DNA from: a virus
Strand: one strand, 5' to 3'
Length of the DNA: 57,263 nucleotides
Virus record (IMG/VR): IMGVR_UViG_3300034156_000030
Location: 1 to 57,263 of that record
Under the pieces are notes generated by a model. That model was not told the DNA's origin, ran no database searches, and was given only the letters and a program-made list of their open reading frames with translations. Shown one piece after another: positions 1-31,368 of this stretch; the stretch's first letter is position 1, and each line of letters starts with the position of its first letter. The position numbers were made by a program, and so were the translations under genes.

Positions 1-5
1 ATGAA

Positions 6-35
6 GGAGGGGGGCTTATATTGCGAGACCCCTCC
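6..35 (-). terminator. Hairpin after the last gene of the RNA polymerase operon
   Basis: GGAGGGG (6-12) pairs with CCCCTCC (29-35) around a 16-nt loop, starting directly after the TAG stop of the 36-269 gene. It is the most GC-rich stem in the left part of the window. No U-run follows before the window edge, so a factor-independent terminator is likely but not proven. Confidence 0.5.
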
Positions 36-269
36 CTATGTCATAACTTTTCTGTAAATTCCTAAGATGTTTTCTTTTATTATCTCATCAATTGCATCTT
101 CAATAGCTATTCGTTCATCTTCTTCTGATAATTCATCACTTGTCTTGGCAATCCTTGCTAAGTATGCACACGAGTTATAACCTTTTGATTCATCAAATGT
201 TTTCCACTTGTCAAACTCAGTGAAAGGATCATAAGGATTGTCTGTTGTAGTTAACATCACGGTAGTCAT
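36..269 (-). CDS. Small acidic phage protein, unknown function
   Basis: 77 residues counted from the second ATG, which lies 8 nt after AAAGGAG; the ATG two codons earlier is too close to that site. It opens with a Thr-rich stretch (LTTTDNPYDPF) and turns acidic and probably helical after residue 45 (SEEDERIAIEDAIDEII). I recognise no catalytic motif. It is the last gene before the edge hairpin and lies 80 nt downstream of the RNA polymerase-like gene, so it is probably read with it, although a weak hairpin separates the two. The N-terminal pattern is one I associate with phages of Gram-positive gut bacteria; that is recollection, not a search. Confidence 0.75.
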   Translation of the reverse strand: MTTVMLTTTDNPYDPFTEFDKWKTFDESKGYNSCAYLARIAKTSDELSEEDERIAIEDAIDEIIKENILGIYRKVMT

Positions 270-297
270 AGACATGTCTCCTTTTTAATTATTTAAA

Positions 298-337
298 AGA
301 ATCTTAAAGTTTTGTTAGACATTATCTAAAAGATTCT
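298..337 (-). terminator. Possible weak terminator after the RNA polymerase-like gene
   Basis: AGAATCTT and AAGATTCT form a perfect 8-bp inverted repeat with a 24-nt AT-rich loop, followed on the minus strand by TTTTAAAT. The stem is AT-rich and the loop long, so termination would be partial at best. Confidence 0.35.
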
Positions 338-348
338 ATTATATTGAT

Positions 349-2994
349 TTAAGTTTTTAAAGCATTAAATAATGCAGATGTAGAGATGCCTAAAGACTCA
401 GCAACTTCTGATTGAGTATAGCCTGAGGCAAGCATTGCTTTAGCACGACTAACACGAGAAGGTGACATCATAGTAGTTGTTCTAGGTGTTGCAAGTTGTT
501 TAATTCTATCTAAGTTAGTGTTCATTAATATCTGTGTTAATTTAGATGGACTAATAGCACCAGCTTGTATAGCCTCCCATTCTCTATCAGTAAGAGGAAT
601 TGGATCTTTCTTTGCTCCTGTTCTAACTCTAGATTCTGCTAATGCTTGATTGCGAACCTTCTTTAGATCATCAGACTCCATACCTGGATTAGCCTGTTTC
701 TTTCTATCTATAATGGAATTGGCTATAACATGTGCCTGTCTTTCTAAAGGTTTATTTTTAAGAGCATTATTCAACTTAGCATTTAATACATCTACTTCTT
801 TAGCATAAGCAAGTCTTGCTGATGGATTATATGGTGTGGGTATTGTTTCGGCAGCGTTCTTTCTAGATGCATTACCTAAAGACTTCAAATTATTAGCATA
901 GGCGGCATAAACTTCTTCTATTGGTCTTCCAGATGATAATGTAAAAGCATTAGAAGTTTCAGCTATTTTTGTAGATTTTATTTGTCTTACTATTGTTTTA
1001 CCATTCTTATCTACATAAGATTCTCCAGTTTTACTATATACTTTTTTTCCAGTATTAACATCAATTGGTCCACCTTCTGCAGCACTTCTAGGTTTTCTAG
1101 CATCTACTCTTGCCTGTGATGATGCTTTAGATATTAATGTTGATGCTCCACCGCTTGAACTATTCTGATATTTGGCTGATAATGAAGCAATTTTATGGTC
1201 TTTAAAAGATTGTCTATAATCCAAGTTATGCTTCTCACTATCTATAACTACCATAGAATGTCTAACAGCCATACATATCTCATCTAAACTAGCACCTTTA
1301 ATAGTCATATCTGTAATGAGATTACTTGCTTCACCCATTTTTGTCTGTTTAGTTTGTGGTTTAATTGGTTTAATATTAGAACCTTCTGGTATTTTATATG
1401 ATGTAATAGGATCAAAATCTTGTAAATTCTTTAATGATGCTGAAGATTTTATTAAACCTTTACTATTAGGTATTACTATTACGGCATCACCATCAAAGTC
1501 TGCTCCAGAAAGTTTTTGTGCTACTTTGGGATGCATACCTATAGCATCTGGTGCTCCTCCCATAACAGCTATTGCATCTTTATTTTTATTATTTACTATA
1601 ACTTGAGGTATTTCAAATGTTCCACCATGAGGATGTCTAATTAGTACAACTGGTTCACCATTATTAAATGTTGGCGCATATATTTCATTTTCTTTCATAC
1701 CTGGAATTGGTAATATAACTTTTGATGCTTGTCTAGGTAAAGCTGCAGCTTTTAAATGGACAGCTGAACTATCACAATCATCTGCAAATGCTTGTAAAAG
1801 TTGTCTTTTTACAACTGGATTGGTTAATTTATTTATTTCATCAAATTCTTCTTGTTTTAATTTTAGTGATAAATCAAGTTGTCTTTTAGCCAAAGGTACT
1901 GATTGTTTTGATAGGATTTGTGATGATATACTTTTAGACCAAGAGCTCCAATCGCCTTCTTCATTAACGATATTAAGTGCACCACTCTTACGTTTAATGG
2001 TTGCTCCAAACGGACTATCAGAATCGATGTTTGTTTGACCATTTTCATCAGTAGTAGTTTTAAGTTTTTTCATAGCACCTAATTTACCAACATCTTTAGA
2101 TTTATTAGTGTTAAACATAATATCCACACCAATAGGCATTTTATCATTATAAATGGCCATACCTTTTAAATAGTGTGTACCATCAACGCTAATACGAACT
2201 TGAGCATATTGTGAACCGCCCAAATCCAAATCTTTAACGCCTCTTCGAAGTTCTATAACGCCATCTTTCTGTGTTCCACCATCTTCGGAAAAATTAATTT
2301 TAATTCTATTAGAGTCAATGCTATGAATAGTTTTATCTATCTCATTAAATGTTCTTCCAAAATCATTAGAATATGCGTTAATTGCTTTTATTTTTCCTAC
2401 ATCTTTTACGACTTCTGACCAACTAGTATCTGGAGCGCCTAAAACTTTCATAATTGTAAATTGTCCAGGTAATCCAACTTGTTCAACGTTAACTCTATGT
2501 ACTTTATATCCTTGTTCTTGTAACTCAGCAACTGCATTATTTAATTTTGTACGGGTTACGCCAAGATATGTTTCAACACCTGCTCCAACATCAATAAATC
2601 TTTTTTGATCTACATTTTCTTTTAGTATACCAGCAGTTACTTTAGTAATAGATGCTCTTTCCGCTAATATGGGATTAAGTATAGAACGAACAGATGATTC
2701 ATTCATTCCCATTCTTCTGCCAATCTCCATATTAGAATAACCTTTATCTTTAAGTTTTAAAATTTCTGTTCTATCTCCTGCTCTTTTTTCTGATTTAACA
2801 AGTGACATTCTAGCTAATAATACAGTTGTAGTTATGCCTTCTCTTTTCGCTATTTCTAAATTACTTAAACCTTCATCACGAAGTTTTTGAATATGAGCTT
2901 TAAAATCAATAGCTCTTTCATAACCGTCTTTTCCGGAGCCCCATGGATACCTTCCAGATTTTCTAGGCATACCATAATGTTTTATCTCACTCAT
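349..2994 (-). CDS. Two-barrel (DxDGD) RNA polymerase-like protein with HTH segments
   Basis: 881 residues, ATG 9-10 nt after AGGAGG. Residues 496-503 read SGADFDGD. The DxDGD motif holds the magnesium-binding aspartates of two-barrel RNA polymerases: cellular beta' (NADFDGD), QDE-1-like RNA polymerases, and phage enzymes such as SPbeta YonO. About 50 residues upstream PVVLIRHPHGGTFEIPQV (448-465) resembles the arginine-proline motif that precedes DxDGD in QDE-1-like proteins. Helix-turn-helix segments are apparent at about 42-62, 84-106 and 857-880. The first 20 residues hold HYGMPRKSGRYPWGSG, a tag-like motif similar in style to tags on phage head proteins, so packaging into the virion is possible. 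It follows two nuclease genes in an operon headed by the promoter box at 3898-3923. Family membership is fairly sure; template, promoter and timing are inference. Confidence 0.75.
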   Translation of the reverse strand: MSEIKHYGMPRKSGRYPWGSGKDGYERAIDFKAHIQKLRDEGLSNLEIAKREGITTTVLLARMSLVKSEKRAGDRTEILKLKDKGYSNMEIGRRMGMNESSVRSILNPILAERASITKVTAGILKENVDQKRFIDVGAGVETYLGVTRTKLNNAVAELQEQGYKVHRVNVEQVGLPGQFTIMKVLGAPDTSWSEVVKDVGKIKAINAYSNDFGRTFNEIDKTIHSIDSNRIKINFSEDGGTQKDGVIELRRGVKDLDLGGSQYAQVRISVDGTHYLKGMAIYNDKMPIGVDIMFNTNKSKDVGKLGAMKKLKTTTDENGQTNIDSDSPFGATIKRKSGALNIVNEEGDWSSWSKSISSQILSKQSVPLAKRQLDLSLKLKQEEFDEINKLTNPVVKRQLLQAFADDCDSSAVHLKAAALPRQASKVILPIPGMKENEIYAPTFNNGEPVVLIRHPHGGTFEIPQVIVNNKNKDAIAVMGGAPDAIGMHPKVAQKLSGADFDGDAVIVIPNSKGLIKSSASLKNLQDFDPITSYKIPEGSNIKPIKPQTKQTKMGEASNLITDMTIKGASLDEICMAVRHSMVVIDSEKHNLDYRQSFKDHKIASLSAKYQNSSSGGASTLISKASSQARVDARKPRSAAEGGPIDVNTGKKVYSKTGESYVDKNGKTIVRQIKSTKIAETSNAFTLSSGRPIEEVYAAYANNLKSLGNASRKNAAETIPTPYNPSARLAYAKEVDVLNAKLNNALKNKPLERQAHVIANSIIDRKKQANPGMESDDLKKVRNQALAESRVRTGAKKDPIPLTDREWEAIQAGAISPSKLTQILMNTNLDRIKQLATPRTTTMMSPSRVSRAKAMLASGYTQSEVAESLGISTSALFNALKT

Positions 2995-3000
2995 AAAAAG

Positions 3001-3555
3001 TTAACCTCCTATCTTTAATTGTTCTATCCTTTTATCAAATTCGATAATTTTAATCATAATATTCCATATTTCTTCCGGTTCTGGAATATGAATTAAAACT
3101 TCATCCGATTGATATATTCTTAGTTCGGTTTCAATTTCAATAGGTTTAATATTATACTCTAAACAGAATAAAGCATTATAAACCAATAATTGTTTTATAG
3201 ATGCTGGTGTTTCTCCTGTTTTTAAATCATGTATTCTTAAAAAGTTTTTTTTGAAAGATATAGCATCTGCTGTGCCAAAACAATTATCCGAAAAATAGAG
3301 AGGTTGTTCTGTTTGCATTTTAAAACCTATAGCATCATTAACATAAATATTAAATGAATTTCTTGTTTTTGGTAATCTAACTCCAAGTTTTATACATTGT
3401 TTAGCAAGTTCATGTAATTCAGTTCCTTTGGCTGCTGCTAAGTATTTAGAAAATGTAGAAACAAGTTTTTCATCATCATAATTTATCCAATGATATTTAC
3501 TTGCACTTAGAAACGCGTGTAATCCGTCTAATCGAGAATGCTTGTTGAAGTTCAT
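3001..3555 (-). CDS. PD-(D/E)XK nuclease, RecB/Cas4-like
   Basis: 184 residues. Motifs in order: GTELHE (44-49), GTAD (94-97, D97), LRIHDLKTG (D110, K112) and KQLLVY (Q122, Y126), the H/E...D...DxK...QxxxY arrangement of RecB/Cas4-type nucleases. It lacks the four cysteines of Cas4, so no iron-sulfur cluster is expected. The likely role is exonucleolytic DNA processing in replication, recombination or host DNA breakdown. The start is fixed by AGAGGAGG six nt before the ATG, which makes the gene overlap the preceding VRR-NUC gene by 59 nt in another frame. Six nt separate it from the RNA polymerase-like gene, indicating one operon. Confidence 0.82.
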   Translation of the reverse strand: MNFNKHSRLDGLHAFLSASKYHWINYDDEKLVSTFSKYLAAAKGTELHELAKQCIKLGVRLPKTRNSFNIYVNDAIGFKMQTEQPLYFSDNCFGTADAISFKKNFLRIHDLKTGETPASIKQLLVYNALFCLEYNIKPIEIETELRIYQSDEVLIHIPEPEEIWNIMIKIIEFDKRIEQLKIGG

Positions 3556-3820
3556 ATAAAACCTCCTCTTTATTTTGAGGACATATCATAGATGCAAAAG
3601 ACATATCATCCATTTTATTTATGTAATATTCTTGGTTTGGTTGATATGGTTCGTTAAGACTTCTTTTACATTCTAATGCTGCCCAATGTTTTTTATATAA
3701 AATTAAAAGGTCAGGAATTCCTTGAACGTATTGTGAATCATTTTTTAAGACTATACATCCAGGAAATATATCTTTAAGCTCTTCAATTAAATCAGCTTGA
3801 AATTTATTTTCTCTAGTCAT
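3497..3820 (-). CDS. VRR-NUC family endonuclease
   Basis: 107 residues. GIPDLLIL (34-41) and AALECKRS (48-54 region, E50 and K52) give the PD...ExK core, followed by QPNQEYYINKM, typical of the small phage VRR-NUC proteins thought to act on branched DNA. The ATG follows GAAAGGAGATCAT. It is the first gene after the promoter box at 3898-3923, with a 71-nt leader that contains a small hairpin and U-run. Its last 59 nt overlap the next nuclease gene. Two nucleases next to a helicase and a replication polymerase suggest a role in handling recombination or replication intermediates. Confidence 0.8.
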   Translation of the reverse strand: MTRENKFQADLIEELKDIFPGCIVLKNDSQYVQGIPDLLILYKKHWAALECKRSLNEPYQPNQEYYINKMDDMSFASMICPQNKEEVLYELQQAFSIRRITRVSKCK

Positions 3821-3834
3821 ATGATCTCCTTTCT

Positions 3835-3857
3835 AAAAAAATAAGAATCCAATTCTT
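3835..3857 (-). promoter_or_regulatory. Leader hairpin with U-run, possible attenuator of the nuclease-RNAP operon
   Basis: On the minus strand AAGAAT-TGG-ATTCTT is followed by A and seven T, inside the 71-nt leader between the 3898-3923 promoter box and the VRR-NUC start. The stem is only 6 bp with a 3-nt loop, so it would terminate weakly; a role as partial attenuator is inference. Confidence 0.35.
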
Positions 3858-3897
3858 AAATTAATTCCTATTAAAGGGACATTTTTTATTCCCCTCT

Positions 3898-3923
3898 ATT
3901 ATAGGCCATGTTTTTCACGCGAG
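3898..3923 (-). promoter_or_regulatory. YTCGC-N15-TATAAT promoter box, copy 1 (nuclease-RNAP operon)
   Basis: Minus strand: CTCGC (3923-3919), 15-nt spacer, TATAAT (3903-3898). It shares the invariant TCGC, the AC in the middle of the spacer and the exact spacing with nine other sites, but TATAAT is followed by AG rather than GA. It lies 8 nt past the stop of the SF2 helicase gene and 71 nt before the start codon of the VRR-NUC gene, so it probably drives the operon that ends with the RNA polymerase-like gene. Confidence 0.6.
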
Positions 3924-3930
3924 TTTGATA

Positions 3931-5109
3931 TTATGATATAAATCTTTTTTCATTAAAATTCTTTTTACCATTAAATGCTTTTCTAATAGCTAAATCGATT
4001 TCTGATGTAGAATATAAATGATAATAATAAAGATTTGTAAATGGTGAGTTTAATCTATCTATTCTACCAGCTGCTTGAATGACTGCTTTATATGAATAAT
4101 TTTGAGAATAGAAAATTACAGTATCTGTTAATATACAATTCCATCCTTCTGCACCTGCAGCATATTGAACTATGTACATCCATTCATTAGTATCAGGAAT
4201 TAATTGATGATTATGACCATTCCATTCTGTTGTTGATATTTTAAGTTTATTACCTAATTCTAAAAGTAATTCTCTCTCATAATTAAAATTATAAAATACT
4301 ATAACTTTAGGATGTTTTTTTATAAGTTGAGCAACTGTATCAACTCTTCTTGGATCACTATTCACAACTCTGCGCATTAAATAACAAAGTTGAGCTACAT
4401 CTCTAACTGGTTCTTTTTCATAAACATTCCAACGTTTAATCATAACTGTATTAAATATTTCTCTATCAAAACCAACTTTAATCAATTTATCATTAGATAT
4501 TGTTCGCTTATTATAATGCATATTAATTATAATTTCATCTCTAAGACGGACTAATCTATTAATCTCTATATAGTGATCTATCTTTGGAAATTTTGAAAAA
4601 TTATTAAATACTACATGTCTACGAATAAATTCGGTACGGTTCTTATAATATCCGTTGGCTACAAATACTGGAATGTAATCAGACCATGTATCACCTGGAG
4701 TTGCACTTAATAAAATCCAGTTATTATTTTTAGTTACTTTAATAAAAGATTTTACCCATGTACCATTTCCTATAACTCGCTGTTCATCTAGTATGAAAAA
4801 TGCATTTTTAACATTAACATATTTTCTTATATTATTCCAAGAATCAACAGTAACTTTAATAGAAAACTTAAATAAACTACATTCTTTTTCCCATTCTAAA
4901 GTATCTCTTTTTCTTGCTGTTGTTATAATATATAAATCTTTTGGTTTCTTCATTTGTAATTTATTGTTATTAAAATCGCCACCACATTCTTTTAAATAAT
5001 ATGCAAGCGAAGTTAATGATTTGCCCGAACCAACACCACCAACTAAAATATTTCCATTTCGAAGTTTTTCTATAGCATCTTTTTGATATGGATATAGTTG
5101 TACAGCCAT
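3931..5109 (-). CDS. Superfamily 2 DNA helicase (SNF2-like)
   Basis: 392 residues. Walker A GVGSGKS (25-31), motif II FILDEQR (105-111), motif III LLSATPGD (133-140) and motif VI QAAGRIDR (345-352) give the two-RecA-domain SF2 layout. Motif II reads DEQR instead of DEAH or DEAD; D and E, which bind magnesium and activate water, are kept. The short length means only the helicase core, as in many phage SNF2-like proteins that remodel replication forks or recombination intermediates. The start is ATG after AAGGAGGATTGTTCT. It follows the SSB-like gene by 60 nt and comes before the nuclease-RNAP operon. Confidence 0.87.
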   Translation of the reverse strand: MAVQLYPYQKDAIEKLRNGNILVGGVGSGKSLTSLAYYLKECGGDFNNNKLQMKKPKDLYIITTARKRDTLEWEKECSLFKFSIKVTVDSWNNIRKYVNVKNAFFILDEQRVIGNGTWVKSFIKVTKNNNWILLSATPGDTWSDYIPVFVANGYYKNRTEFIRRHVVFNNFSKFPKIDHYIEINRLVRLRDEIIINMHYNKRTISNDKLIKVGFDREIFNTVMIKRWNVYEKEPVRDVAQLCYLMRRVVNSDPRRVDTVAQLIKKHPKVIVFYNFNYERELLLELGNKLKISTTEWNGHNHQLIPDTNEWMYIVQYAAGAEGWNCILTDTVIFYSQNYSYKAVIQAAGRIDRLNSPFTNLYYYHLYSTSEIDLAIRKAFNGKKNFNEKRFIS

Positions 5110-5169
5110 AGAACAATCCTCCTTAAAATATATGCCCGTCTAGCCGATAGCACAGCTTTATTTTTTTAA

Positions 5170-5706
5170 TTAATCATGATGTTTACAACTACCATCACAT
5201 GCTTCACAATTGCCACAACCACCAATAGAATCAACAGCACTATCTGGGGCGTCATAATATTGTTTTTCAAATTCATCTTCTGCTATTGTTATATACATGG
5301 CTTTAACATATGCTTTAACGCCGCTTTTTTCATTTGGAGTGCCTTTATGCATTGTCCAGTTATATGGACAAATAACTAGATCTATTTTAGCTATATCAGC
5401 CCAATCAATAATGGAAACTGATTCTTCGTCCATTAATGTTTTTCCTTTACTTGAGATTATTAATATTTTTGGCGGTGTATTATCATAAGCTACTTTTACT
5501 TGAAGATATCCTTGTTTCGGGGCACCATCATCTTTTGGAGTTAGCCACCTAACATTCCAGCCATCATCTTCTAACTTGGCTGACAAATTATCATCAAGAA
5601 ATACACAAAAATTTCGTTGTCCTTCTGGATTGAATCTACCTAACTTACCACTAAAATTACGGAAACCTATATCAGCATTAGCGATAGATATATTACTTTT
5701 AATCAT
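5170..5706 (-). CDS. Phage single-stranded DNA-binding protein-like
   Basis: 178 residues, beginning IKSNISIANADIGFRNFSGK, followed by a beta-rich central part (FCVFLDD, YLQVKVAY, KILIISSKGKT, IDLVICPYNW, AYVKAMYITI) consistent with an OB-fold. The C-terminus is Cys/His-rich (GGCGNCEACDGSCKHHD), a possible metal site and unlike the acidic tip of bacterial SSB. Position directly after the replication polymerase gene (15 nt gap) and before the helicase supports an ssDNA-binding role. I recognise the first half as a family often annotated as phage SSB; the biochemical role here is inferred. Confidence 0.7.
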   Translation of the reverse strand: MIKSNISIANADIGFRNFSGKLGRFNPEGQRNFCVFLDDNLSAKLEDDGWNVRWLTPKDDGAPKQGYLQVKVAYDNTPPKILIISSKGKTLMDEESVSIIDWADIAKIDLVICPYNWTMHKGTPNEKSGVKAYVKAMYITIAEDEFEKQYYDAPDSAVDSIGGCGNCEACDGSCKHHD

Positions 5707-5721
5707 TTAGTTATTCCCCTT

Positions 5722-8700
5722 TCAAAATGGCATACAATCGTAGCCTAATTTACATGAATTTGGTCCTGTACTATCTGTTGTCCAATTGATGCAGTTAACA
5801 CAATCAGTCTTTTTAGGACATTCCGGTAACCAAGGTGGAATATCATCAAAACCTATTGGCGCTAATTCTTGTTGCATTCTTTCTGGGTCATCAGATACAA
5901 ACCAATCAAAATCACCATATTTAGAAATATCTTCGACTGCACTATCAACTAATGTTTCATAATACGATAAATCTATATCAGAATTTCTATCTAATGATTT
6001 TACCATTTCTGCTTCTAACCATTTAAATCCTTTAGTTCCAGTAGCAGAATAATATTTATCATCTTTCATGCGATATAATGTTCCGCCACCACAACCAACT
6101 TTAATAGGACAAAATGCTCCAACTTTTCCGACGAAATGATATTCATGTTGTCCCTCTATAGTTTCATCCATGTCAATATATAAAGCGCCTTGACTCACAG
6201 ATTTAGTTTCACGCATATCTTCAAAACATAATTCTTCTTTAGAGAACAATGTTTTAAATACATAAGGCTGAGCAAATTGTGTTCCAGTAGCAGTCCAACC
6301 TCTTGATTCTATTAAATCTTTTGATTTAGATTCTTCCCAACCTTTAACCCGTGCAATATATACTGCATCGTTAACAAGACAGAATCTAGAATATGTGTCT
6401 TCCAATTCAAATTCATAACCATATTTTTTACCAAAAGCAAATATAAAGTCTATAATATCTGGGTCAGCATCTGGAATGGCTAATTTAATAGAATCTGTTT
6501 TGATGTGAATAGCTGCATAACCTTTCTCTTCAACTGCATATTTTAAGTCTATCATAAATAATGCACCACGTTTTGCAACTATGTTGTCTTTATTTCTAGG
6601 GTCTCTAAATGGATTTTCAAAAGAAGCTGATGTTAAACCATAAGCTGAATTAAGAGCAGTCTTTAATCCATTAGACACATCCTTTAAAGTAAACAAAGGT
6701 TTATCACTGAGTGCATTTTCAATAAATGGCCATATTTTACCATCAAGTAGAACTTTTAATGTATCAAAGTCTTTATGTTTAATTGCTATCCTACCTTTCT
6801 TTAAATCGGAATAATTTTTTGTATATGGGCCAAATAGATTTAATTCCTCTATACTGGTTGGGTGCATAGATGCTACATCAATAACAACTACATTAGAATA
6901 CATTCCAGGAATTGATTCTACATATCCACCCTCTCCAACTTCTATGCCTCGATAAGTACTTTTACCATTCTCAAATTTATATCCTGGAAACATAATACTT
7001 AAATCTGTATACACTAATTTATCTTGGGTCTTTCTATCCTTACCAAATACAATTCTAGTTGAGTGAGTGTTAGTTGTATCGTTAACTGTTAATCCACTTA
7101 ATGCAGCAAGAATTTGTCTAGCTGCCCAATCACCTGCTGTATAATTAAATACAGCTTCTGTAGCATCAACATCATTACCACAATAATCTGCAACTAAGTC
7201 CCACATATGTTCGGGTACTTCTTGGTCCCATGGTAAACCTAATTCTTGATGATGAATACCCAGTTTAATCTCCCACTTTTTAAGACTCATTTTATTACCA
7301 GCACTTAGATAATCATAAGCATCTGTATAAGATATATTATATGCTTCACCAAATAAACAATTTTTACTATCGCCAATAATCTTTTGAGATAGTAAATATA
7401 ATTGCTCATTCGAATATCCAATATATCTGGCATATAATATGTGATTATCATATCTCCGACAATTAAATCCTATTAATTTAAATTTCATTAACGCTTCAAC
7501 ATCTTTCGAAGAAGGGTTAATCATTTTAACTTTATTACCGCCTTTCTTTTTCCAAACAATTATAAATAGATTAGGAAATACTTCAACATCAAAAAATATT
7601 AAATCATCATTAATATATTCTTCTGTCGAATTGCTTATTTCTTCAGAAGCAAACTGCATTTTACTAATTAACTTAATACAATAGTCTGATTGATTACTTG
7701 AGTTATTAGCAAATGCTAAAATCTTCGGACGCATATCAGTCACATCATATTTTATACCTGATTTATAAGCATCCTCTAATATCTTTTGAATAAAGTCTAT
7801 AGATGGTTTTGTTCCTGGGTGTATTTCTTTGTGAAGATTTCGAGCAATTAAATCTCTTAAACCTTTTTCACTTTGAACAGCATTAAAATTTATCAATTTA
7901 CTATCTCCTTTCAAGGGTAGCCCACTATTGATAGTTGCAACTGGTGAGTTGTTGCACTTAGATAATTTTCTTCTCAACGAGGCTTGCCCGGTAAATATTT
8001 TTACTTCAATCCCTTCTGAATATACTCTACTTAATCTTTGTACATCACCATCATAAATATAATGAAGGTGTATGCCACCACCACTCTTACTAAATTCAGC
8101 ATAAGTTAGTGGCCATTTGCTAGCTTCTTCAATATTTAATTCAACTGATTTTTTACCAGAAGAATCTTTTAAGTCAAAATCTATTACTATGTGATTTTCT
8201 GGTGGTCTAACATAATGAATCTTTTTAGTATCAATACTTTTTAGTTTAATTTTTACTTTCTCCCATTTATTTTTAGGTATCTCTTCTTCTGTAGCATATT
8301 GTGCTTGACATTCAGATAATATTTCATCAATTATAGAATTAGTTTCTTCTAGAACAAAAGAAGCTTTTTTAATTATTTCAGATTTTTTATAAGTTTTATC
8401 ATGTAAAGCTTTACCTATAAAATCTTTATATACACTTCTTACTTGCTTATCGTCTATTCTAGTTACGTCATAAAATTCAAAGAAGTATGATTTTAACTCT
8501 TCTCTAAACTTATGCTTTTGCAGTTTATAAGTTATTAATGCTTCATCACAATATATTTTATACATAGAATATGCCTGTGATAATGTGGTCCATTCTTGTG
8601 ATTTAAAAACCTCATAACTATCTTCTACAAAATTGAAGAATATATCTGTTTGCATCATCATGTCTATTGGCTTATAATTAGAATAATATTTACTACCCAT

Positions 8701-9690
8701 AGATTGATATACAGTTAAACAATGATGGGCTATTGCACCTAATTCAAAATTTATTTTATTTACTAGTATATCATATCTTTCTGGTAATAAAAGTTTTCCA
8801 CTGGGTCTAACATCTATTAGTCGTCTAATAATACCAGACTTAGCATCTGTTATATGTATTGGTTTATTAGTTCCAATAAATAACATAGCATGTGATCTCG
8901 CACTATATGATGGTTTATATTTCTCAGTTATTATTATTTCTTCATGAGAAACTATTGAGTTTAATTTTGTATTATCTTCTATCCTTGATAAATCACCATC
9001 GTGTTCTATGGCTATTAAAGGATTAGTCTTAAATGCTTCCGTAGCAAATGATGTATTACTAGTTAATGTTTTAGCTACAAACATTCCATAATATCCTTCA
9101 AATAACTTTTGTAATATATTTAGAAATGTAGATTTACCAGCACCAGAGTCACCATATATCACTATAAATTTTTGTATGAACTTAGAATCACCAGATATTA
9201 TTGAACCAATAGCCCATTCTAACTTAGCTCTTTCTTCTGGAATGTATAATGTACTCATTAATTCTTCATATGCAGATATTGGTCCGGACTCTAGAGGATA
9301 TGATAATTTTCTACTAACATAATCAGTCCTTTTTATATCTGTATTGGAGAAAACTATCTTTGTATCTAGAGTAGTTGCATTATCTGATAATTCTTTCATA
9401 AATAGTTTATAATTCTTCCACATGTTTGATGATGAGCTCATCATATATTTAGTATCTATTTTTCCGTCATAATGTTTTTCTTTTTCTTTTGTGTATTCTT
9501 TTAATTCCATATCCACTAAAGTTTGTACATCATATTCATCATTAGACCATAACTGTTTATCATCATCCCATACAGCATAGAATGATTTTCCACGAATCAT
9601 TAAATCTTTAGAACGACATACTCTAAAGTCAGGAAATATTTCTAAAACTTTATTTTTACTTGTACGCTCTACTATCTTATAGAAATCCAC
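5722..9690 (-). CDS. SF3 helicase - AEP primase - family B DNA polymerase fusion
   Basis: 1322 residues, GTG start 7 nt after AAAGGAG. N-terminal SF3/D5-like helicase: Walker A GDSGAGKST (180-188), Walker B LIAIEHDGD (225-233), motif C FIGTNKP (271-277), arginine finger GIIRR (286-290). Middle part: VIDFDLKD (502-509), GGGIHLHY (537-544) and IEVKIF (561-566), matching the DxD, sxH and third motif of archaeo-eukaryotic primases. C-terminal family B polymerase: ExoI FFDVEVF (699-705, D701/E703), ExoII FNCRRYD (742-748), ExoIII YCGNDVDA (836-843), motif A VIDVASMHP (936-944, D938), motif B KTALNSAYG (1010-1018), motif C IHIKTDS (1061-1067). The first Asp of the usual DTDS is Lys. The C-terminus has six cysteines between 1291 and 1319, a likely metal site. 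The primase assignment is the least certain part. Confidence 0.85.
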   Translation of the reverse strand: MDFYKIVERTSKNKVLEIFPDFRVCRSKDLMIRGKSFYAVWDDDKQLWSNDEYDVQTLVDMELKEYTKEKEKHYDGKIDTKYMMSSSSNMWKNYKLFMKELSDNATTLDTKIVFSNTDIKRTDYVSRKLSYPLESGPISAYEELMSTLYIPEERAKLEWAIGSIISGDSKFIQKFIVIYGDSGAGKSTFLNILQKLFEGYYGMFVAKTLTSNTSFATEAFKTNPLIAIEHDGDLSRIEDNTKLNSIVSHEEIIITEKYKPSYSARSHAMLFIGTNKPIHITDAKSGIIRRLIDVRPSGKLLLPERYDILVNKINFELGAIAHHCLTVYQSMGSKYYSNYKPIDMMMQTDIFFNFVEDSYEVFKSQEWTTLSQAYSMYKIYCDEALITYKLQKHKFREELKSYFFEFYDVTRIDDKQVRSVYKDFIGKALHDKTYKKSEIIKKASFVLEETNSIIDEILSECQAQYATEEEIPKNKWEKVKIKLKSIDTKKIHYVRPPENHIVIDFDLKDSSGKKSVELNIEEASKWPLTYAEFSKSGGGIHLHYIYDGDVQRLSRVYSEGIEVKIFTGQASLRRKLSKCNNSPVATINSGLPLKGDSKLINFNAVQSEKGLRDLIARNLHKEIHPGTKPSIDFIQKILEDAYKSGIKYDVTDMRPKILAFANNSSNQSDYCIKLISKMQFASEEISNSTEEYINDDLIFFDVEVFPNLFIIVWKKKGGNKVKMINPSSKDVEALMKFKLIGFNCRRYDNHILYARYIGYSNEQLYLLSQKIIGDSKNCLFGEAYNISYTDAYDYLSAGNKMSLKKWEIKLGIHHQELGLPWDQEVPEHMWDLVADYCGNDVDATEAVFNYTAGDWAARQILAALSGLTVNDTTNTHSTRIVFGKDRKTQDKLVYTDLSIMFPGYKFENGKSTYRGIEVGEGGYVESIPGMYSNVVVIDVASMHPTSIEELNLFGPYTKNYSDLKKGRIAIKHKDFDTLKVLLDGKIWPFIENALSDKPLFTLKDVSNGLKTALNSAYGLTSASFENPFRDPRNKDNIVAKRGALFMIDLKYAVEEKGYAAIHIKTDSIKLAIPDADPDIIDFIFAFGKKYGYEFELEDTYSRFCLVNDAVYIARVKGWEESKSKDLIESRGWTATGTQFAQPYVFKTLFSKEELCFEDMRETKSVSQGALYIDMDETIEGQHEYHFVGKVGAFCPIKVGCGGGTLYRMKDDKYYSATGTKGFKWLEAEMVKSLDRNSDIDLSYYETLVDSAVEDISKYGDFDWFVSDDPERMQQELAPIGFDDIPPWLPECPKKTDCVNCINWTTDSTGPNSCKLGYDCMPF

Positions 9691-9712
9691 ATGTTGTCTC
9701 CTTTCTACTATT

Positions 9713-9908
9713 TTGTTACTGTTACACTTTTATTTTAAACTATATTATATATATACTTTTTTCTCACGTGTAAAGGTAAGAAAAAAAGTGTAACAATGTA
9801 ACAAAAAAGCACTAAAATAGACATTTTTTAACAAAAAAGCACTAAAATATCATAATTATACAAAAACACAAAAAACTCGAAAATAAAAGTGTAACAGAAA
9901 GTGTAACA
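9713..9908 (-). other. AT-rich iteron region, candidate replication origin
   Basis: 196 bp without a gene between the replication fusion protein and the next operon. AAGTGTAACA-type repeats occur at 9786-9796, 9887-9896 and 9899-9908 on the plus strand and once inverted at 9719-9731. A shorter GTAACA is at 9798-9803. A second direct repeat, ACAAAAAAGCACTAAAATA, stands at 9801-9819 and 9831-9849 with a 30-bp period. A run of alternating AT (about 9740-9757) could be an unwinding element. Repeats plus an AT-rich block next to helicase-primase-polymerase are typical of an origin. Operator function for a repressor is the alternative. Confidence 0.5.
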
Positions 9909-10442
9909 TTATATTGGATAATTTTCCAGCATATAAGCACTCATTTGATACCAAATCTCAACTTTTCGTTGGTCTTTTCTCGGATTCTTCAATGGAAATA
10001 ATCCACCATATCCATTCTTTTCATATCGTCTGTAGACTAGCACTTCTATTTTATCGTATATTAAATTATCTATACTTCTGTTAGGTCGCATAAATATATC
10101 ATCATATGGCGATAGTGATAAGTTATCTAATAATATAAAAATCCACTCACTTGGCGTCTTTTCCCAAGAGCTATCTATAGTCTCAAACTCAAGTCTATAT
10201 GATAATCCTATTAACATTTCAAGAACTGAACAACAATCCTCATCTAGGTGAGATAAAGAAAAGGCAGGGTTGTACCCAACCTCCTCTTCAAATTTTTGTC
10301 GCCATTGTTTACCATCTTCAATTCTATTATCATCATTCGGAACAAGTGAATAAAATTTTATATCGTGCAAACTGCTTAATAATATACTATATTCCTTTGA
10401 ATTATCCACTAAATTACAAAGGAATCCTAGATAATCAAGCAT
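9909..10442 (-). CDS. Conserved phage protein, unknown function
   Basis: 177 residues from an ATG that overlaps the TGA of the preceding gene (ATGCTTGA), the coupled start I prefer; a GTG 36 nt upstream is the alternative. The sequence is acidic and Tyr/Trp-rich, with EDGKQWRQKF, CSVLEMLIGLSYRLEFE and a C-terminal block GYGGLFPLKNPRKDQRKVEI that I recognise from many phages of Gram-positive gut bacteria, always without a known role. No transmembrane segment or catalytic motif is apparent. It forms an operon with the membrane protein gene just upstream and ends at the candidate origin. Confidence 0.78.
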   Translation of the reverse strand: MLDYLGFLCNLVDNSKEYSILLSSLHDIKFYSLVPNDDNRIEDGKQWRQKFEEEVGYNPAFSLSHLDEDCCSVLEMLIGLSYRLEFETIDSSWEKTPSEWIFILLDNLSLSPYDDIFMRPNRSIDNLIYDKIEVLVYRRYEKNGYGGLFPLKNPRKDQRKVEIWYQMSAYMLENYPI

Positions 10443-11283
10443 CTGGTTTATTGCCTTTACGCTTAGCATATCTTTCACGAGGGCTAAGATTCGCTTTTAT
10501 TTGTACAGGTGCTAAATCAGCAAATGAACCAATAACAGCAATGATTTCGTAGTCTACAGAATTGAATTCATTACGTACGTATAAGGCTTCATTAGGATTA
10601 GCGGCTATTTGAGTTAAGGCATTATACCCAAATACTATATCTGGGTCCTCTATTAATGACTCAGTTTCATCAGACATCTTATTATCAACGGTATGATAAT
10701 AAACAGTCTCTTTATCGTTATGGTCTCCACCCTCAGTAAATTCTAAGTAGTCTATTACGTACGGCTCAGGATTATTAAAGACGTTTCTGGCTATCATACT
10801 TTCTTCAGTTTCACCAGCATCATCTGTCTCTGGACCTTCATCTTCCTCATTATAGGAAATTTTATCTGGTTCTAGGGCAGGCTTTTTACTTGTTAAATTA
10901 TACATTTTTTTTGCCTGCTCATACGGATTAGCATCTAGAGATGAACGAACAAGTGGATTATTATTCGTCCGTTCTACTTGAGATTCACCATATTCTTCAT
11001 CAGTCATCCCGTTATCAACATCTAAAGCACCATTCGTCGCTCTCTTTCCTCGAGTATTTTCTGATATCATTTGTATCTCGGCCAAATCCTCATTATAACT
11101 TTTCATGGCACTTGCATAACCAGTTTGATAAGCCACATTTCGAACACTATCTATCTCCTCTTGTAAAAGGTTTTCATAGAATTCCTCATATTTCTTCTTA
11201 CCTACAAAGAATCCTATAGTTACTCCCAATGAAAATATTATAGCATTTATAAGCATAGTTCCTCTAGTATCAAAATTATTCAT
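10435..11283 (-). CDS. Membrane-anchored acidic phage protein
   Basis: 282 residues, ATG nine nt after GAGGAGG. Residues 10-27 (MLINAIIFSLGVTIGFFVG) form one N-terminal transmembrane segment followed by a charged helix (KKKYEEFYENLLQEEIDSV), then a long acidic, low-complexity region. The last 100 residues are more ordered (PYVIDYLEFTEGG, TVYYHTVDNKMSDE, ALYVRNEFNSVDYEII) and match a C-terminal pattern common in phage proteins of unknown function encoded near DUF6353-like membrane proteins. It would sit at the host membrane with its bulk in the cytoplasm or outside; the topology is not decidable here. Confidence 0.78.
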   Translation of the reverse strand: MNNFDTRGTMLINAIIFSLGVTIGFFVGKKKYEEFYENLLQEEIDSVRNVAYQTGYASAMKSYNEDLAEIQMISENTRGKRATNGALDVDNGMTDEEYGESQVERTNNNPLVRSSLDANPYEQAKKMYNLTSKKPALEPDKISYNEEDEGPETDDAGETEESMIARNVFNNPEPYVIDYLEFTEGGDHNDKETVYYHTVDNKMSDETESLIEDPDIVFGYNALTQIAANPNEALYVRNEFNSVDYEIIAVIGSFADLAPVQIKANLSPRERYAKRKGNKPDA

Positions 11284-11315
11284 CTTTATTATCCTCCTCT
11301 TATTTTAATCAGAAT

Positions 11316-11570
11316 CTACTTCTTTATCATTTTTCCTAATAAAGTGACTTTATAGTCATCTTTTTCATCTGGATTTTGTGACTCGATAACTGTTAATTTA
11401 AATTCCATTATTATCATACTTAAACTACTACCTCTTACTGGTATAGTGTTTTCAGCATTTTTGGATGCTTCTAAGAATCGCATTGCGGCATCAGCTTCAA
11501 TCTTGTTTTTACCTTGGTATATTACACAAGACGCTACCATGCCTTCTTGAAATTCTAATGAATTACTCAT
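11316..11570 (-). CDS. Small protein of a local paralogue family (a)
   Basis: 84 residues, ATG after AGAGGAGATGATTAA. Pattern: hydrophobic strand (VASCVIYQG), Ala-rich helix (EADAAMRFLEASKNAENTIPV), then alternating strands (IIMEFKLTVIES, DYKVTLLGKMI). The proteins at 11907-12194 and 13214-13477 share this order and an AAxxMFxF-like helix, so the three look like diverged tandem duplicates. Function unknown; no catalytic residues stand out. Confidence 0.75.
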   Translation of the reverse strand: MSNSLEFQEGMVASCVIYQGKNKIEADAAMRFLEASKNAENTIPVRGSSLSMIIMEFKLTVIESQNPDEKDDYKVTLLGKMIKK

Positions 11571-11590
11571 TTAATCATCTCCTCTCAGAC

Positions 11591-11845
11591 TTACAATATT
11601 AAATCTTTTAAAGAAATGACTTCTCCATTAATATCAATAATTTTATAATCTTTTCTTGATAAAACATGTACGATCTCTTTAAATTTATCTGGATTCATCA
11701 CGACGAATGATAATTCATAATCAGTTGCATCTTTATCGTGTCTTGGTGTTTTAGTTAATAATGATATCGAACTTTCAGTAATTAGACTTATCATTTTTTC
11801 AGTCAGCATAGACATAATATATTGTTTAAATTCATCTTCTGACAT
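11591..11845 (-). CDS. Small phage protein, start possibly at an ATT 36 nt upstream
   Basis: 84 residues from the ATG at 11845, but that ATG has no ribosome site close by. An in-frame ATT at 11881 lies 7 nt after AAAGGGG, which would add IDNEETLNHQKY and give 96 residues. The protein has an amphipathic first half (FKQYIMSMLTEKMISLI) and a C-terminus with FKEIVHVLSRKDYKIIDING. No function recognised. It sits in the array of small genes between 11.3 and 13.8 kb. Confidence 0.7.
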   Translation of the reverse strand: MSEDEFKQYIMSMLTEKMISLITESSISLLTKTPRHDKDATDYELSFVVMNPDKFKEIVHVLSRKDYKIIDINGEVISLKDLIL

Positions 11846-11906
11846 ATATTTCTGATGATTAAGTGTCTCCTCATTATCAATCGATATTCCCCTTTCGAAT
11901 TAAATA

Positions 11907-12194
11907 TTAATGTACAATATCCCAAACCCTTAGTTCAAGTAAAATACCCTTTGCTACTACTTTGTATGTTATTTTATTAGTATTTAAACCATCCAATTCA
12001 ATAACAACTTCTTCTATTTCCAATACAAAGTTACATATTTCATCTGGTACCTCGTCTATATAAGCACCACTCATCGTAATAGGAATAAATAATTTTTCTT
12101 TTCTCATATTTTCTAAAGTATTAAAGAAATGCATAGCTTCAGCAGCATTGGTGTCGTTATACATGATAACACGTGCATCATCACCATCTACCAT
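11907..12194 (-). CDS. Small protein of a local paralogue family (b)
   Basis: 95 residues, ATG after GAGGTGTTAAT. ARVIMYNDTNAAEAMHFFNTL is followed by strands FVLEIEEVVIEL and ITYKVVAKGILLELRV. The order matches the neighbours at 11316-11570 and 13214-13477, consistent with duplication and divergence of one small alpha/beta protein. No known motif; function unknown. Confidence 0.73.
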   Translation of the reverse strand: MVDGDDARVIMYNDTNAAEAMHFFNTLENMRKEKLFIPITMSGAYIDEVPDEICNFVLEIEEVVIELDGLNTNKITYKVVAKGILLELRVWDIVH

Positions 12195-12207
12195 ATTAAC
12201 ACCTCAA

Positions 12208-12414
12208 CTATCTTCCAATATCTATTTCTTCTACTCTAGAACCATTTAATAACTTATTTCTTTGACGTTCTAGGGTTTCTAGTGATTTTAGTAATAACTG
12301 TGTTGCTACACTTTCAGGAGTATCTAATTTTGTAATGGCATCTTTAACATTATGTATATCTTTATCTAGTTTTTCAAGAAAATCTAAAGCTTCTTTAAAT
12401 GTTTTAAAGTTCAT
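12208..12414 (-). CDS. Small coiled-coil protein
   Basis: 68 residues, ATG after AAAGGAGGTATTTGTT. Almost wholly helical and charged (FKEALDFLEKLDKDIHNVKDA, LLLKSLETLERQRNKLL) with leucine heptads, so a short dimeric coiled coil is likely. No function recognised; part of the small-gene array. Confidence 0.72.
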   Translation of the reverse strand: MNFKTFKEALDFLEKLDKDIHNVKDAITKLDTPESVATQLLLKSLETLERQRNKLLNGSRVEEIDIGR

Positions 12415-12428
12415 AACAAATACCTCCT

Positions 12429-12749: not shown

Positions 12750-12769
12750 AGAATGATACCTTATAATAA

Positions 12770-13015
12770 TCACTCCTTTTTCTCATACATTGTATTATCC
12801 ACATCTATTGTTGGTAAAATATCATACGTCCATTTTAATTCATAAGTTATATTGTCATATTTTTTATGTTGAATTTTTATGTTAGTTTTATTTTTTTTGA
12901 ATAGATATAAGTCATTAGGAGTAATTGCTGTGAATATATCAAATAATATTATTCCATCTGTGTCAATAAATATATTGTTTATTTTGTCATAATACAAAGG
13001 AATATTATATATCAC
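12770..13015 (-). CDS. Small ITPNDLYLFKK-family protein (b)
   Basis: 81 residues from the second GTG, 8 nt after AAAGGAG; the first GTG touches the ribosome site. YYDKINNIFIDTDG and ITPNDLYLFKKNK align with the gene downstream, pointing to a local duplication. Lys/Asn-rich, no cysteine, no transmembrane segment. Function unknown. Confidence 0.7.
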   Translation of the reverse strand: MIYNIPLYYDKINNIFIDTDGIILFDIFTAITPNDLYLFKKNKTNIKIQHKKYDNITYELKWTYDILPTIDVDNTMYEKKE

Positions 13016-13034
13016 AGTAATCACTCCTTTTAAC

Positions 13035-13208: not shown

Positions 13209-13213
13209 AATAA

Positions 13214-14863: not shown

Positions 14864-14931
14864 AAAAAAGAAGAGTGTTGATTATTTTACTAATCTTGAT
14901 TCCTGTCTGCACATGGGAATCCATACTCTTC
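14864..14931 (-). ncRNA. Structured leader with U-run, possible attenuator or small RNA
   Basis: Between the promoter box at 14932-14957 and the DUF6353-like gene. On the minus strand GAAGAGT (14931-14925) can pair with ACTCTTC (14876-14870), followed by six T. Inside, GATTCC pairs with GGAATC and GATT with AATC, a three-way junction. If transcription starts 6-7 nt after the -10 box, the first arm is mostly untranscribed and only the inner hairpins and U-run remain. A 27-codon ORF starting ATGGATTCC at the predicted +1 is also open. Confidence 0.35.
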
Positions 14932-14957
14932 ATTAAACACCATGTTATTTCTGCGAG
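14932..14957 (-). promoter_or_regulatory. YTCGC-N15-TWTAAT promoter box, copy 10
   Basis: Minus strand: CTCGC (14957-14953), 15 nt, TTTAAT (14937-14932) then GAAGA. The upstream element lies in the last codons of the 14945-15157 gene (TCG CAG AAA TAA). It faces the DUF6353-like gene 107 nt away. Confidence 0.55.
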
Positions 14958-19360: not shown

Positions 19361-19387
19361 AATAATCATCCTTTCGATTTTATTTTC

Positions 19388-19413
19388 ATTATAGGACAAG
19401 TTATTGGCGCGAG
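19388..19413 (-). promoter_or_regulatory. YTCGC-N15-TATAAT promoter box, copy 2
   Basis: Minus strand: CTCGC (19413-19409), 15 nt, TATAAT (19393-19388) then GAAAA. The upstream half overlaps the last codons of the 28-residue membrane peptide (TCG CGC CAA TAA). Drives the 19022-19360 gene with a leader of about 21 nt. Confidence 0.62.
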
Positions 19414-22922: not shown

Positions 22923-22953
22923 GATGATCATCCTTTCAATTTTTATTATCTTC

Positions 22954-22979
22954 ATTATAGTCCTTGTATTTTTTGCGAG
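22954..22979 (-). promoter_or_regulatory. YTCGC-N15-TATAAT promoter box, copy 3
   Basis: Minus strand: CTCGC (22979-22975), 15 nt, TATAAT (22959-22954) then GAAGA. It stands 5 nt beyond the stop of the HAD fusion gene and serves the 22707-22922 gene. Confidence 0.62.
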
Positions 22980-27459: not shown

Positions 27460-27510
27460 GTAAGTATAGATATTTAACTATCTAATTACGCACCTTACAT
27501 ACGTACTTAC
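27460..27510 (-). ncRNA. Structured leader with U-run after promoter box 9
   Basis: Minus strand: GTAAGT (27510-27505) pairs with ACTTAC (27465-27460), followed by five T. Inside are TACG/CGTA and the perfect hairpin TAGATA-GTTAAA-TATCTA (27484-27467). Transcription from the box at 27516-27541 should begin at the first base of the outer stem. An attenuator or a short stable RNA would fit. Confidence 0.42.
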
Positions 27511-27515
27511 CTCTC

Positions 27516-27541
27516 ATTAGAGGATGTGTTTTTATCGCGAG
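27516..27541 (-). promoter_or_regulatory. YTCGC-N15-TCTAAT promoter box, copy 9
   Basis: Minus strand: CTCGC (27541-27537), 15 nt, TCTAAT (27521-27516) then GAGAG. The upstream half overlaps the stop of the 27532-27645 ORF (TCG CGA TAA). It leads to a structured leader and at most a very short ORF. Confidence 0.52.
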
Positions 27542-27667: not shown

Positions 27668-27741
27668 AAGAGTCTTCGGATTCGAACCGATTTCGCCATT
27701 ATTGCTAATGGTGTTTTACTTTTTTAAACTAGCTCACTCTT
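27668..27741 (-). tRNA. tRNA-like element, degenerate
   Basis: 74 nt. AAGAGT (27741-27736) then, after three extra bases GAG, C pairs with GACTCTT (27674-27668) as a 7-bp acceptor stem. A D-arm-like GTTT/AAAC, an anticodon-arm-like CCATT/AATGG with a 6-nt loop AGCAAT, and a T-arm with the B-box match GGTTCGAATCC follow in the correct order. The D-loop lacks GG and the anticodon loop is one base short. Seven T follow the 3' end. The MazG-like gene's TGA stop lies in the acceptor strand. A tRNA remnant or mimic, not a clear functional tRNA. Confidence 0.5.
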
Positions 27742-28228
27742 CACTATAGACTGTGTTATTCTTGCGATCTTGTATGAATACCCATTTACCAATATCTTGA
27801 AAATTAAAAGTTTCATAATGTCTTTCTCCCACATATGTAACTATAAAGGTATATTCATCCATTTGTGTGATTTTACCAAATCTCATTTTACTACCATTAT
27901 GAGGTTTCACACTAACTGAATCTCCAATAGAACAGACAGCCACTGCAAAGTGCATAAGATTTAATACTTTATCTTTTTTCTTCTGTATCATTTCTTTAAT
28001 AGAAACTGAATCACAATCCGTTACATATACGTCTTGTTTATCGCATTCCTCTTTAACTAGTTCATAGACAGCCCTAACGTCTATAAATTCTTGTTGCATT
28101 TTATCAACACTAGAGGGCTCTCGATTCCATTTGTTATCTATTCCAAAGCGTATAGCTTTAGAAGCTTCTTTTTGTAACTCACTACACTCTTCCATTAAAC
28201 AAACTAATAAATATTCTACTTTAGTCAT
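27734..28228 (-). CDS. MazG-like NTP pyrophosphohydrolase with SH3-like C-terminus
   Basis: 164 residues. LLVCLMEECSELQKEASKAI and QQEFIDVRAVYELVKEE give the ExxE...ExxD helices of the all-alpha NTP-PPase fold. Residues 95-155 (GDSVSVKPHNGSKMRFGKIT, FIVTYVGERHYETFNF, IGKWVFI) form an SH3-like barrel resembling the N-terminus of the DUF5664-like protein. It probably hydrolyses (d)NTPs or a signalling nucleotide such as ppGpp. Its last codons overlap the tRNA-like element. Confidence 0.78.
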   Translation of the reverse strand: MTKVEYLLVCLMEECSELQKEASKAIRFGIDNKWNREPSSVDKMQQEFIDVRAVYELVKEECDKQDVYVTDCDSVSIKEMIQKKKDKVLNLMHFAVAVCSIGDSVSVKPHNGSKMRFGKITQMDEYTFIVTYVGERHYETFNFQDIGKWVFIQDRKNNTVYSEE

Positions 28229-29999: not shown

Positions 30000-30005
30000 C
30001 TTTTC

Positions 30006-30031
30006 ATTATAGTAAATGTAATTTTCGCGAG
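30006..30031 (-). promoter_or_regulatory. YTCGC-N15-TATAAT promoter box, copy 4
   Basis: Minus strand: CTCGC (30031-30027), 15 nt, TATAAT (30011-30006) then GAAAA. It begins immediately after the terminator of the 30046-30273 gene and drives the leader and gene at 29531-29815. Confidence 0.62.
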
Positions 30032-30273: not shown

Positions 30274-30303
30274 AAAATATCCTCCTAAAATTTATTTATC
30301 TTC

Positions 30304-30329
30304 ATTATAAGCTAAGTTTTTTGTGCGAA
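30304..30329 (-). promoter_or_regulatory. YTCGC-N15-TATAAT promoter box, copy 5
   Basis: Minus strand: TTCGC (30329-30325), 15 nt, TATAAT (30309-30304) then GAAGA. The TTCGC merges with the U-run of the terminator of the preceding gene (TTCTTTCGC). Confidence 0.62.
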
Positions 30330-30512: not shown

Positions 30513-30537
30513 ATAAAATTCCTCCTAAATTTATTTC

Positions 30538-30563
30538 ATTATAATATATGTTTTATATGCGAA
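30538..30563 (-). promoter_or_regulatory. YTCGC-N15-TATAAT promoter box, copy 6
   Basis: Minus strand: TTCGC (30563-30559), 15 nt, TATAAT (30543-30538) then GAAAT. It lies 74 nt downstream of the duplicated 111-bp element, copy 2. Confidence 0.6.
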
Positions 30564-31065: not shown

Positions 31066-31096
31066 ATTCGCTCATCCTTTCTATTTTTTATTCTTC

Positions 31097-31122
31097 ATTA
31101 AAGGATAAGTTTCTGACGCGAA
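31097..31122 (-). promoter_or_regulatory. YTCGC-N15-TTTAAT promoter box, copy 7
   Basis: Minus strand: TTCGC (31122-31118), 15 nt, TTTAAT (31102-31097) then GAAGA. Directly continues the U-run of the preceding terminator (CTTTTTTCGCG). Confidence 0.6.
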
Positions 31123-31311: not shown

Positions 31312-31342
31312 ATAAATCGTCTCCTTTAATTTAATGTATCTC

Positions 31343-31368
31343 ACTAAAGGGCAAGTTTATTACGCGAA
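31343..31368 (-). promoter_or_regulatory. YTCGC-N15-TTTAGT promoter box, copy 8
   Basis: Minus strand: TTCGC (31368-31364), 15 nt, TTTAGT (31348-31343) then GAGAT. Weakest -10 of the ten. It marks the switch from the late structural operon to the small-gene region. Confidence 0.52.

Follow-up and report, generated by a model that had tools for sequence, protein, structure and literature searches.

A two-barrel RNA polymerase homologue of tailed phages, its constant small partner and a repeated promoter-like element

The phage gene studied here had been read, from its letters alone, as coding for an RNA polymerase-like protein which, if active, could transcribe part of the genome independently of the host. 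The questions raised by this locus are whether the protein belongs to the RNA polymerases and from which start sites it might transcribe. We approached them through the predicted fold of the protein, its gene neighbourhood and the intergenic regions of this phage and its relatives.

The polymerase homologue and its predicted fold

The window, i.e. the whole stretch of DNA analysed (57,263 nucleotides, positions 1 to 57,263 of the IMG/VR record IMGVR_UViG_3300034156_000030), carries on its minus strand, at 349..2994, an open reading frame with an ATG start, coding for an 881-aa homologue of single-chain two-barrel RNA polymerases. It belongs to phrog_4291, whose profile it matches with 1207.9 bits (residues 3-880 of 881 on profile positions 11-906 of 909). 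Both motifs on which the initial annotation was based are present, SGADFDGD at residues 496-503 and, ahead of it, PVVLIRHPHGG at residues 448-458. The aspartates D499, D501 and D503 of the catalytic-type metal loop DFDGD (residues 499-503; 1486..1500, minus strand) were found in 172/172 full-length family members, the motif being SGADFDGD in 171 of them and SGADYDGD in one (L132); as the triad is kept in all these homologues, the polymerase motifs are more than a chance resemblance. R453, P455, H456 and G458 of the RHPHGG motif (residues 453-458; 1621..1638, minus strand) are invariant in the 106-row family alignment. A six-frame scan of the window for DxDGD returned one further occurrence only, in a minus-strand frame broken by stops, and a tape-measure-fused virion RNA polymerase like that of phage P23-45 was rejected, no second DxDGD of that kind being present in the window.

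An AlphaFold2 model of the protein, for which the 106-row alignment served as the input, reached a mean pLDDT of 89.8 and a pTM of 0.83. When it was compared with the PDB by Foldseek, the best match was QDE-1 (4e-10), followed by maize RDR2 and the P74-26 phage RNA polymerase. VIA-align superposed the model on QDE-1 with Z 17.6 and an rmsd of 4.1 over 355 residues (model residues about 221-717), on RDR2 with Z 17.3, and on P23-45-type phage polymerases with Z 14.1 and 13.6. Because a confident model matches QDE-1, RDR2 and P23-45-type RNA polymerase, a catalytic core with two double-psi beta-barrel (DPBB) domains, the fold of the two-barrel RNA polymerase superfamily, is supported for this protein. 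Two such barrels around the DFDGD loop had been set beforehand as a test of the assignment, and both are supported by the model. The beta'-like barrel, DPBB-A, is predicted at about residues 415-510 (1465..1752, minus strand); the solved stand-alone DPBB domain 7dg9 matches residues 417-510 with Z 10.1, and Rpb1-type subunits are matched as well. The beta-like barrel, DPBB-B, is predicted at about residues 223-345 (1960..2328, minus strand) from conservation, model strands and structural alignments which, for this barrel, are those of the whole core only (QDE-1, RDR2, P23-45-type RNA polymerase). It includes the invariant K277 and K309 and the nearly invariant K298, as judged by conservation and without superposition on the QDE-1 lysines. 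PDB sequence searches, for which the protein itself and a 9-row profile were the queries, gave HTH proteins and other weak matches and no polymerase, so the relation to polymerases is visible by fold alone; the Pfam RdRP model (PF05183) scored 17.9 bits, under its gathering cut-off of 23.8.

The N-terminal ~220 and C-terminal ~160 residues, beyond the polymerase-fold match, contain helix-turn-helix (HTH) units. Three HTH segments had been counted originally; this was about right by Pfam, which gives three HTH_23 stretches (best 2e-10), and a slight undercount by the model, whose helices fit four HTH-like units at about residues 31-63, 74-107, 140-166 (winged) and 845-880. The three N-terminal units, the winged one taken as far as residue 186, lie at 2437..2904 (minus strand; Pfam HTH_23, HTH_24 and Sigma70_r4_2), and the C-terminal one at 355..462 (minus strand; HTH_3 and HTH_7). 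Full-length homologues throughout phrog_4291 have the same layout, so that HTH-barrel-HTH is the rule in this family and the earlier claim of an unusual combination falls. Arthrobacter phage Qui (MN183282) has two places matching the polymerase, and its free-standing 95-aa HTH protein A0A5B8WIH5 resembles part of the polymerase model (TM 0.75).

The family is widely spread. Searching 50,697 phage records with tblastn, we found the polymerase in 250, nearly always at full length and below 60% identity, in phages of Arthrobacter, Gordonia, Streptomyces, Lactococcus, Curtobacterium, Rhodococcus, Microbacterium and other hosts. Relatives occur on at least 506 IMG/VR contigs and at no fewer than 126 loci in GTDB bacterial genomes, mostly in prophages of Lachnospiraceae and other Clostridia. 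PHROGs names phrog_4291 'RNA-dependent RNA polymerase', and its members are mostly labelled 'HTH protein' or 'RdRP'. No literature on the function of the family or on its promoter-like element was found in a search that left subscription papers mostly out of reach. The polymerase adds a member to a family that was already known but is unstudied; the advance lies in the evidence that a constant small partner and a promoter regulon accompany this family.

The operon and its small partner

The polymerase gene is part of an operon whose first gene codes for a VRR-NUC-type endonuclease (3497..3820, minus strand; phrog_93, in 167/173 loci), annotated as VRR-Nuc in its homologues of phages RosaAsantewaa and Correa. 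An exonuclease gene lies directly upstream of the polymerase (3001..3555, minus strand; phrog_3953, 171/173 loci), and a gene for an acidic protein of 79 residues follows it (36..275, minus strand; phrog_4303). The order VRR-NUC, exonuclease, polymerase, 79-aa protein is preserved across related loci. The last gene is a constant companion of the polymerase: it was directly downstream in all loci with enough sequence (167/167), and the sequence of the six loci without it breaks off no more than about 90 bp from the polymerase stop codon. Conversely, when the search was started from the 79-aa protein, the polymerase was upstream in 79/80 loci, the exception beginning at a contig edge. In the phage collection, 250 records match the polymerase and 250 the 79-aa protein, with equal genus and host tallies, and in RosaAsantewaa the two genes share four overlapping bases. 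The model of the small protein (pLDDT 92.4) has a beta-alpha-alpha-alpha-beta order, and no solved structure matched it (Foldseek E 1.0 and VIA Z 3.5 at best), which does not imply a new fold. The simplest reading of this association is that the 79-aa protein would be a subunit or a dedicated regulator of the polymerase.

Other genes of the window deserve a brief description. A 1322-aa fusion (5722-9690) joins a P4-type helicase region to a family B (Pol II-like) DNA polymerase, and its residues around 500-600 are primase-like by eye (VIDFD ... SGGGIHLHY). A candidate replication origin is the AT-rich gap upstream of this gene (9691-9908), in which TGTTACA(C)TTT and TTTTAGTGCTTTTTTGTTA are repeated. 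Two copies of family phrog_2152 are found at 13875-14825 and 24909-25748. The large and small subunits of an anaerobic ribonucleotide reductase are encoded at 19507-21862, which indicates an anaerobic host. A large tail-fibre-type gene (49713-52487) occupies an unusual location between the portal and terminase genes.

A repeated promoter-like element in the early regions

When intergenic regions of the window were read in the direction of transcription, a repeated element was noticed, of the form TCGCR-nn-AAAAACAT-nnn-CTATAATGAAGAG or, written more fully over about 31 bp, TCGCR-nn-AAAAACAT-nnn-CTNTWAT-RRRR. It has 11 copies, all on the coding strand and all in the early region. The pattern YTCGCGNNANAAACWTNNCCTNTAATGA, with up to 3 mismatches, matched the window seven times, compared with 0.00 in shuffles; a looser pattern had 10 matches against 0.03 expected. 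A position weight matrix (PWM) scan gave 11 strong copies (at least 28 bits), all on the minus strand between 3.9 and 31.4 kb, one weak match (19 bits) at 44.0 kb, and no strong copy in the structural module (about 32-57 kb).

The copy TCGCGTGAAAAACATGGCCTATAATAGAGGG at 3892..3922 precedes the VRR-NUC/exonuclease/polymerase/79-aa operon. It was detected by both the pattern and the PWM, as were those at 19382..19412, 27510..27540 (hexamer TCTAAT), 30000..30030, 30298..30328, 31091..31121 (TTTAAT, 0 mismatches to the consensus) and 31337..31367 (TTTAGT). The copies at 14926..14956, 22948..22978 and 30532..30562 were found by the looser pattern and the PWM, and that at 27737..27767 (TATAGT) by the PWM; all eleven are on the minus strand. 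Right after the TATAGT copy there is a tRNA-like stretch (27620-27770) with an intact-looking T arm (CGGTTCGAATCCG); Aragorn and Rfam called nothing over the window, this stretch included. A scan of positions 1-16000 with the sigma70 consensus returned 92 sites where 91.4 were expected, and was thus useless here.

The element is not peculiar to this phage. Expectation-maximisation on regions upstream of the polymerase operon produced CTCGCGAAAAAAACATGGCCTATAATAGAAGGAGA (34.7 bits), with 145/164 regions scoring above the best shuffled sequence and the remaining 19/164 below this threshold; the procedure was seeded with the window copy, and for this reason the shuffles serve as the control. Among 30 related viral records, 22 contained the pattern, each on a single strand, and none the backward pattern. 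Streptomyces phage RosaAsantewaa (59% GC) and Arthrobacter phage Correa (7402-57401 searched) have 7 copies each, all on the coding strand and none in the structural module; in both genomes the copies begin at the end of the structural genes and recur immediately ahead of the VRR-NUC operon. In Lactococcus phage P118, where identity of the polymerase is down to 37-41%, a distinct variant, TTTTACATACCCTATAATGA / TTTTACATACCCTATAATGAAAGG, occurs in at least 8 copies, again confined to the coding strand and absent from the structural genes. The TCGCG box is gone from this variant, and the recognition helix of the second HTH is altered too (NESSVR to SPGSVT). That element and recognition helix may have changed together is only suggestive, as the comparison comes from one lineage.

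Linkage of the element to the polymerase was also visible on a larger scale. In IMG/VR the general pattern was present in at least 119 stretches, compared with 5 for the backward pattern, and the polymerase or a piece of it was on 60/71 of the motif-bearing records tested and on 0/5 control records. None of the 11 motif-bearing records without the polymerase has the 79-aa gene, and most carry several copies of the element; at least two (G046, G054) break off within the DNA polymerase gene and others seem incomplete, while in G088 an exonuclease relative is present but neither a polymerase nor any sequence coding for DFDGD. Exact matches in 12 whole bacterial genomes (about 46 Mb) numbered nine, and eight of these lie immediately upstream of a polymerase prophage or no more than about 10 kb away from it. 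This linkage reflects in part the common descent of the operon.

The leader that follows the element may have a function of its own. In the window (3821-3930, between the element and the VRR-NUC gene) the purines at its start can pair with pyrimidines further downstream, which are followed by a T run. A T run was present in 137/139 leaders, and a strong hairpin (z below -2) in 41.6% of those with the run; possibly the leader (also, e.g., in L009, L054, L137 and L103) is an attenuator. With arms swapped between loci as the comparison, bases 4-6 after the hexamer were slightly more self-complementary (z 3.9) and bases 1-3 were not, so that a transcription start nearer the hexamer than that of sigma70 is only hinted at.

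Candidate readers of the element

Sigma70 -10 boxes depend most on their second (A-11) and last (T-7) bases and least on the third. In 164 non-redundant copies of the element, chosen with the hexamer columns switched off, the frequencies were T 0.87, A 0.62, T 0.92, A 0.64, A 0.87 and T 0.93, i.e. A-11 in 62%, T-10 in 92% and T-7 in 93% of copies. With A at the second base in only 62% and T at the third in 92%, this profile is unlike that of sigma70. TATAAT is the commonest hexamer (54/164); TTTTAT, TCTAAT, TGTAAT and TTAAAT also occur, as does CTTTTATGA in whole groups of Clostridia prophages. No -35 box was seen in the aligned copies, and the element does not have the full set of features of bacterial sigma70 promoters (-35 TTGACA, strongly conserved A-11 and T-7). 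The non-sigma70 hexamer, the lack of a -35 box, the sameness across host phyla and the near absence from host chromosomes favour the phage polymerase as the reader, and the original suggestion of host-independent transcription of part of the genome has thereby gained promoter-level evidence in the form of a repeated candidate element.

We consider it probable that the phage has a sigma-independent polymerase which serves the early and middle genes through dedicated promoters of about 31 bp. The single-chain two-barrel enzyme, which we infer to be active with DNA as the template and to read the element, would cover the half of the genome that holds the early and middle genes (replication, accessory), its own operon included, and its terminal HTH units would make contact with the promoter, replacing a sigma factor in its recognition. 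The 79-aa protein may act as a stoichiometric subunit or a regulator. The first polymerase molecules would probably arise from weak host transcription, since many copies of the element still resemble a sigma70 -10 box, or might enter with the virion; the polymerase would then transcribe its own operon from the element, resulting in positive feedback. For the structural genes, read-through across the joined genome ends might suffice, or host RNA polymerase might serve them.

A different arrangement has to be weighed, in which host RNA polymerase with sigma70 reads the element, a phage activator binds its unusual -30 box (TCGCG) in the manner of T4 middle promoters, and the phage polymerase serves other, late genes. 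T4 middle promoters consist of a MotA box plus TATAAT, and they too have a box near -30, a TATAAT-like hexamer and no -35; the hexamer conservation of the element is, however, unlike that of sigma70, A-11 being frequently missing from the element and its hexamers divergent. Since TATAAT is the commonest hexamer, host RNA polymerase could read many copies, and because the element also precedes the polymerase's own operon, it may do so at least early on; copies in the early regions and before this operon are where a host-read early promoter would be, and transcription of the SPbeta late genes by YonO (PMC5467207) is a precedent for the rest of the scheme. On the other hand, the element is common to phages of Firmicutes and Actinobacteria and nearly absent from the host chromosomes, and the four genomes examined contain no candidate late-gene copy of a phage promoter. 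Thus, we regard this arrangement as rather unlikely.

The remaining explanations concern the protein itself. Synthesis of double-stranded RNA from phage or host transcripts by an RNA-templated polymerase would agree with QDE-1 and RDR2 as the closest folds and with the PHROG and RefSeq names; these names, however, derive from remote similarity (the Pfam RdRP score stays below the cut-off), four HTH-like units suggest DNA, all carriers are DNA tailed phages, and the solved QDE-1 complexes include DNA templates, which makes such an activity very improbable. We give equally little credence to a role in making RNA primers for phage DNA replication. The polymerase does adjoin genes for the exonuclease, helicase, annealing protein and DNA polymerase; yet another route of primer synthesis is probably present, because the 1322-aa protein has a P4-type helicase region and its homologues are annotated as DNA primase/polymerase, and the promoter-like elements would be left unexplained. 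Loss of catalysis, leaving a DNA-binding regulator, appears the least credible, in spite of HTH units at both ends and the 'HTH DNA-binding protein' annotations: 172 members, at identities down to about 40%, all keep the aspartate triad, RxPHGG and other core residues, and such a loss is hard to reconcile with this.

Among extant enzymes, single-chain two-barrel RNA polymerases are regarded as the most similar to the ancestor from which all cellular RNA polymerases descend. A proven DNA-dependent RNA polymerase of phage late genes is YonO of Bacillus phage SPbeta (PMC5467207). The 881-aa protein shares with it the single chain, the aspartate triad of the msRNAP type and the R-x-P-H motif; hhalign with a 43-sequence YonO set nevertheless aligns the RxPH...DGD region alone, with RHPHGG weakly placed opposite RSPH of YonO (probability 3%, P 0.013), and the candidate promoters described here lie in early regions, none of them in structural modules, whereas YonO serves late genes. 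The non-virion RNA polymerase of Thermus phage P23-45 transcribes early and some middle genes, and a DNA motif upstream of the early genes was proposed as the promoter of this enzyme, gp64 (PMC10770324). With gp64 and its P74-26 relative our protein shares the two-barrel fold (Z 13.6-14.1) and the GAD(Y/F)DGD loop; gp64 has 616 residues compared with 881, its sequence similarity is weak and centred on DxDGD (hhalign probability 14.7%), and its promoter differs. The division of labour proposed by us would resemble that of P23-45 more closely than that of SPbeta and YonO. QDE-1 and plant RDR2, the closest solved folds over residues 223-717 (11-17% identity), are eukaryotic RNA-silencing enzymes, and the match includes no HTH units. 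Arthrobacter, Gordonia and Streptomyces phages whose phrog_4291 protein is annotated 'HTH DNA-binding domain protein' have the same full-length protein and gene order, with no essential difference.

With somewhat less assurance, we favour the wider reading that tailed phages of Firmicutes, Actinobacteria and other hosts have a self-contained sigma-independent system, consisting of a single-chain two-barrel polymerase that reads promoters through built-in HTH units, a constant 79-aa subunit and a regulon of 31-bp early/middle promoters which would co-diverge with the polymerase. How single-chain two-barrel polymerases find their promoters is a largely unsolved problem, left open also in the case of YonO (PMC5467207). 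Hundreds of sequenced phages have a member of this family, mostly labelled 'HTH protein', and many of these phages are laboratory isolates (SEA-PHAGES; Arthrobacter, Gordonia, Streptomyces); a concrete candidate promoter, together with the enzyme and a candidate subunit, would make start-site recognition testable in an ordinary laboratory. Such a system might also provide orthogonal gene expression for Gram-positive bacteria, as T7 RNA polymerase does for E. coli.
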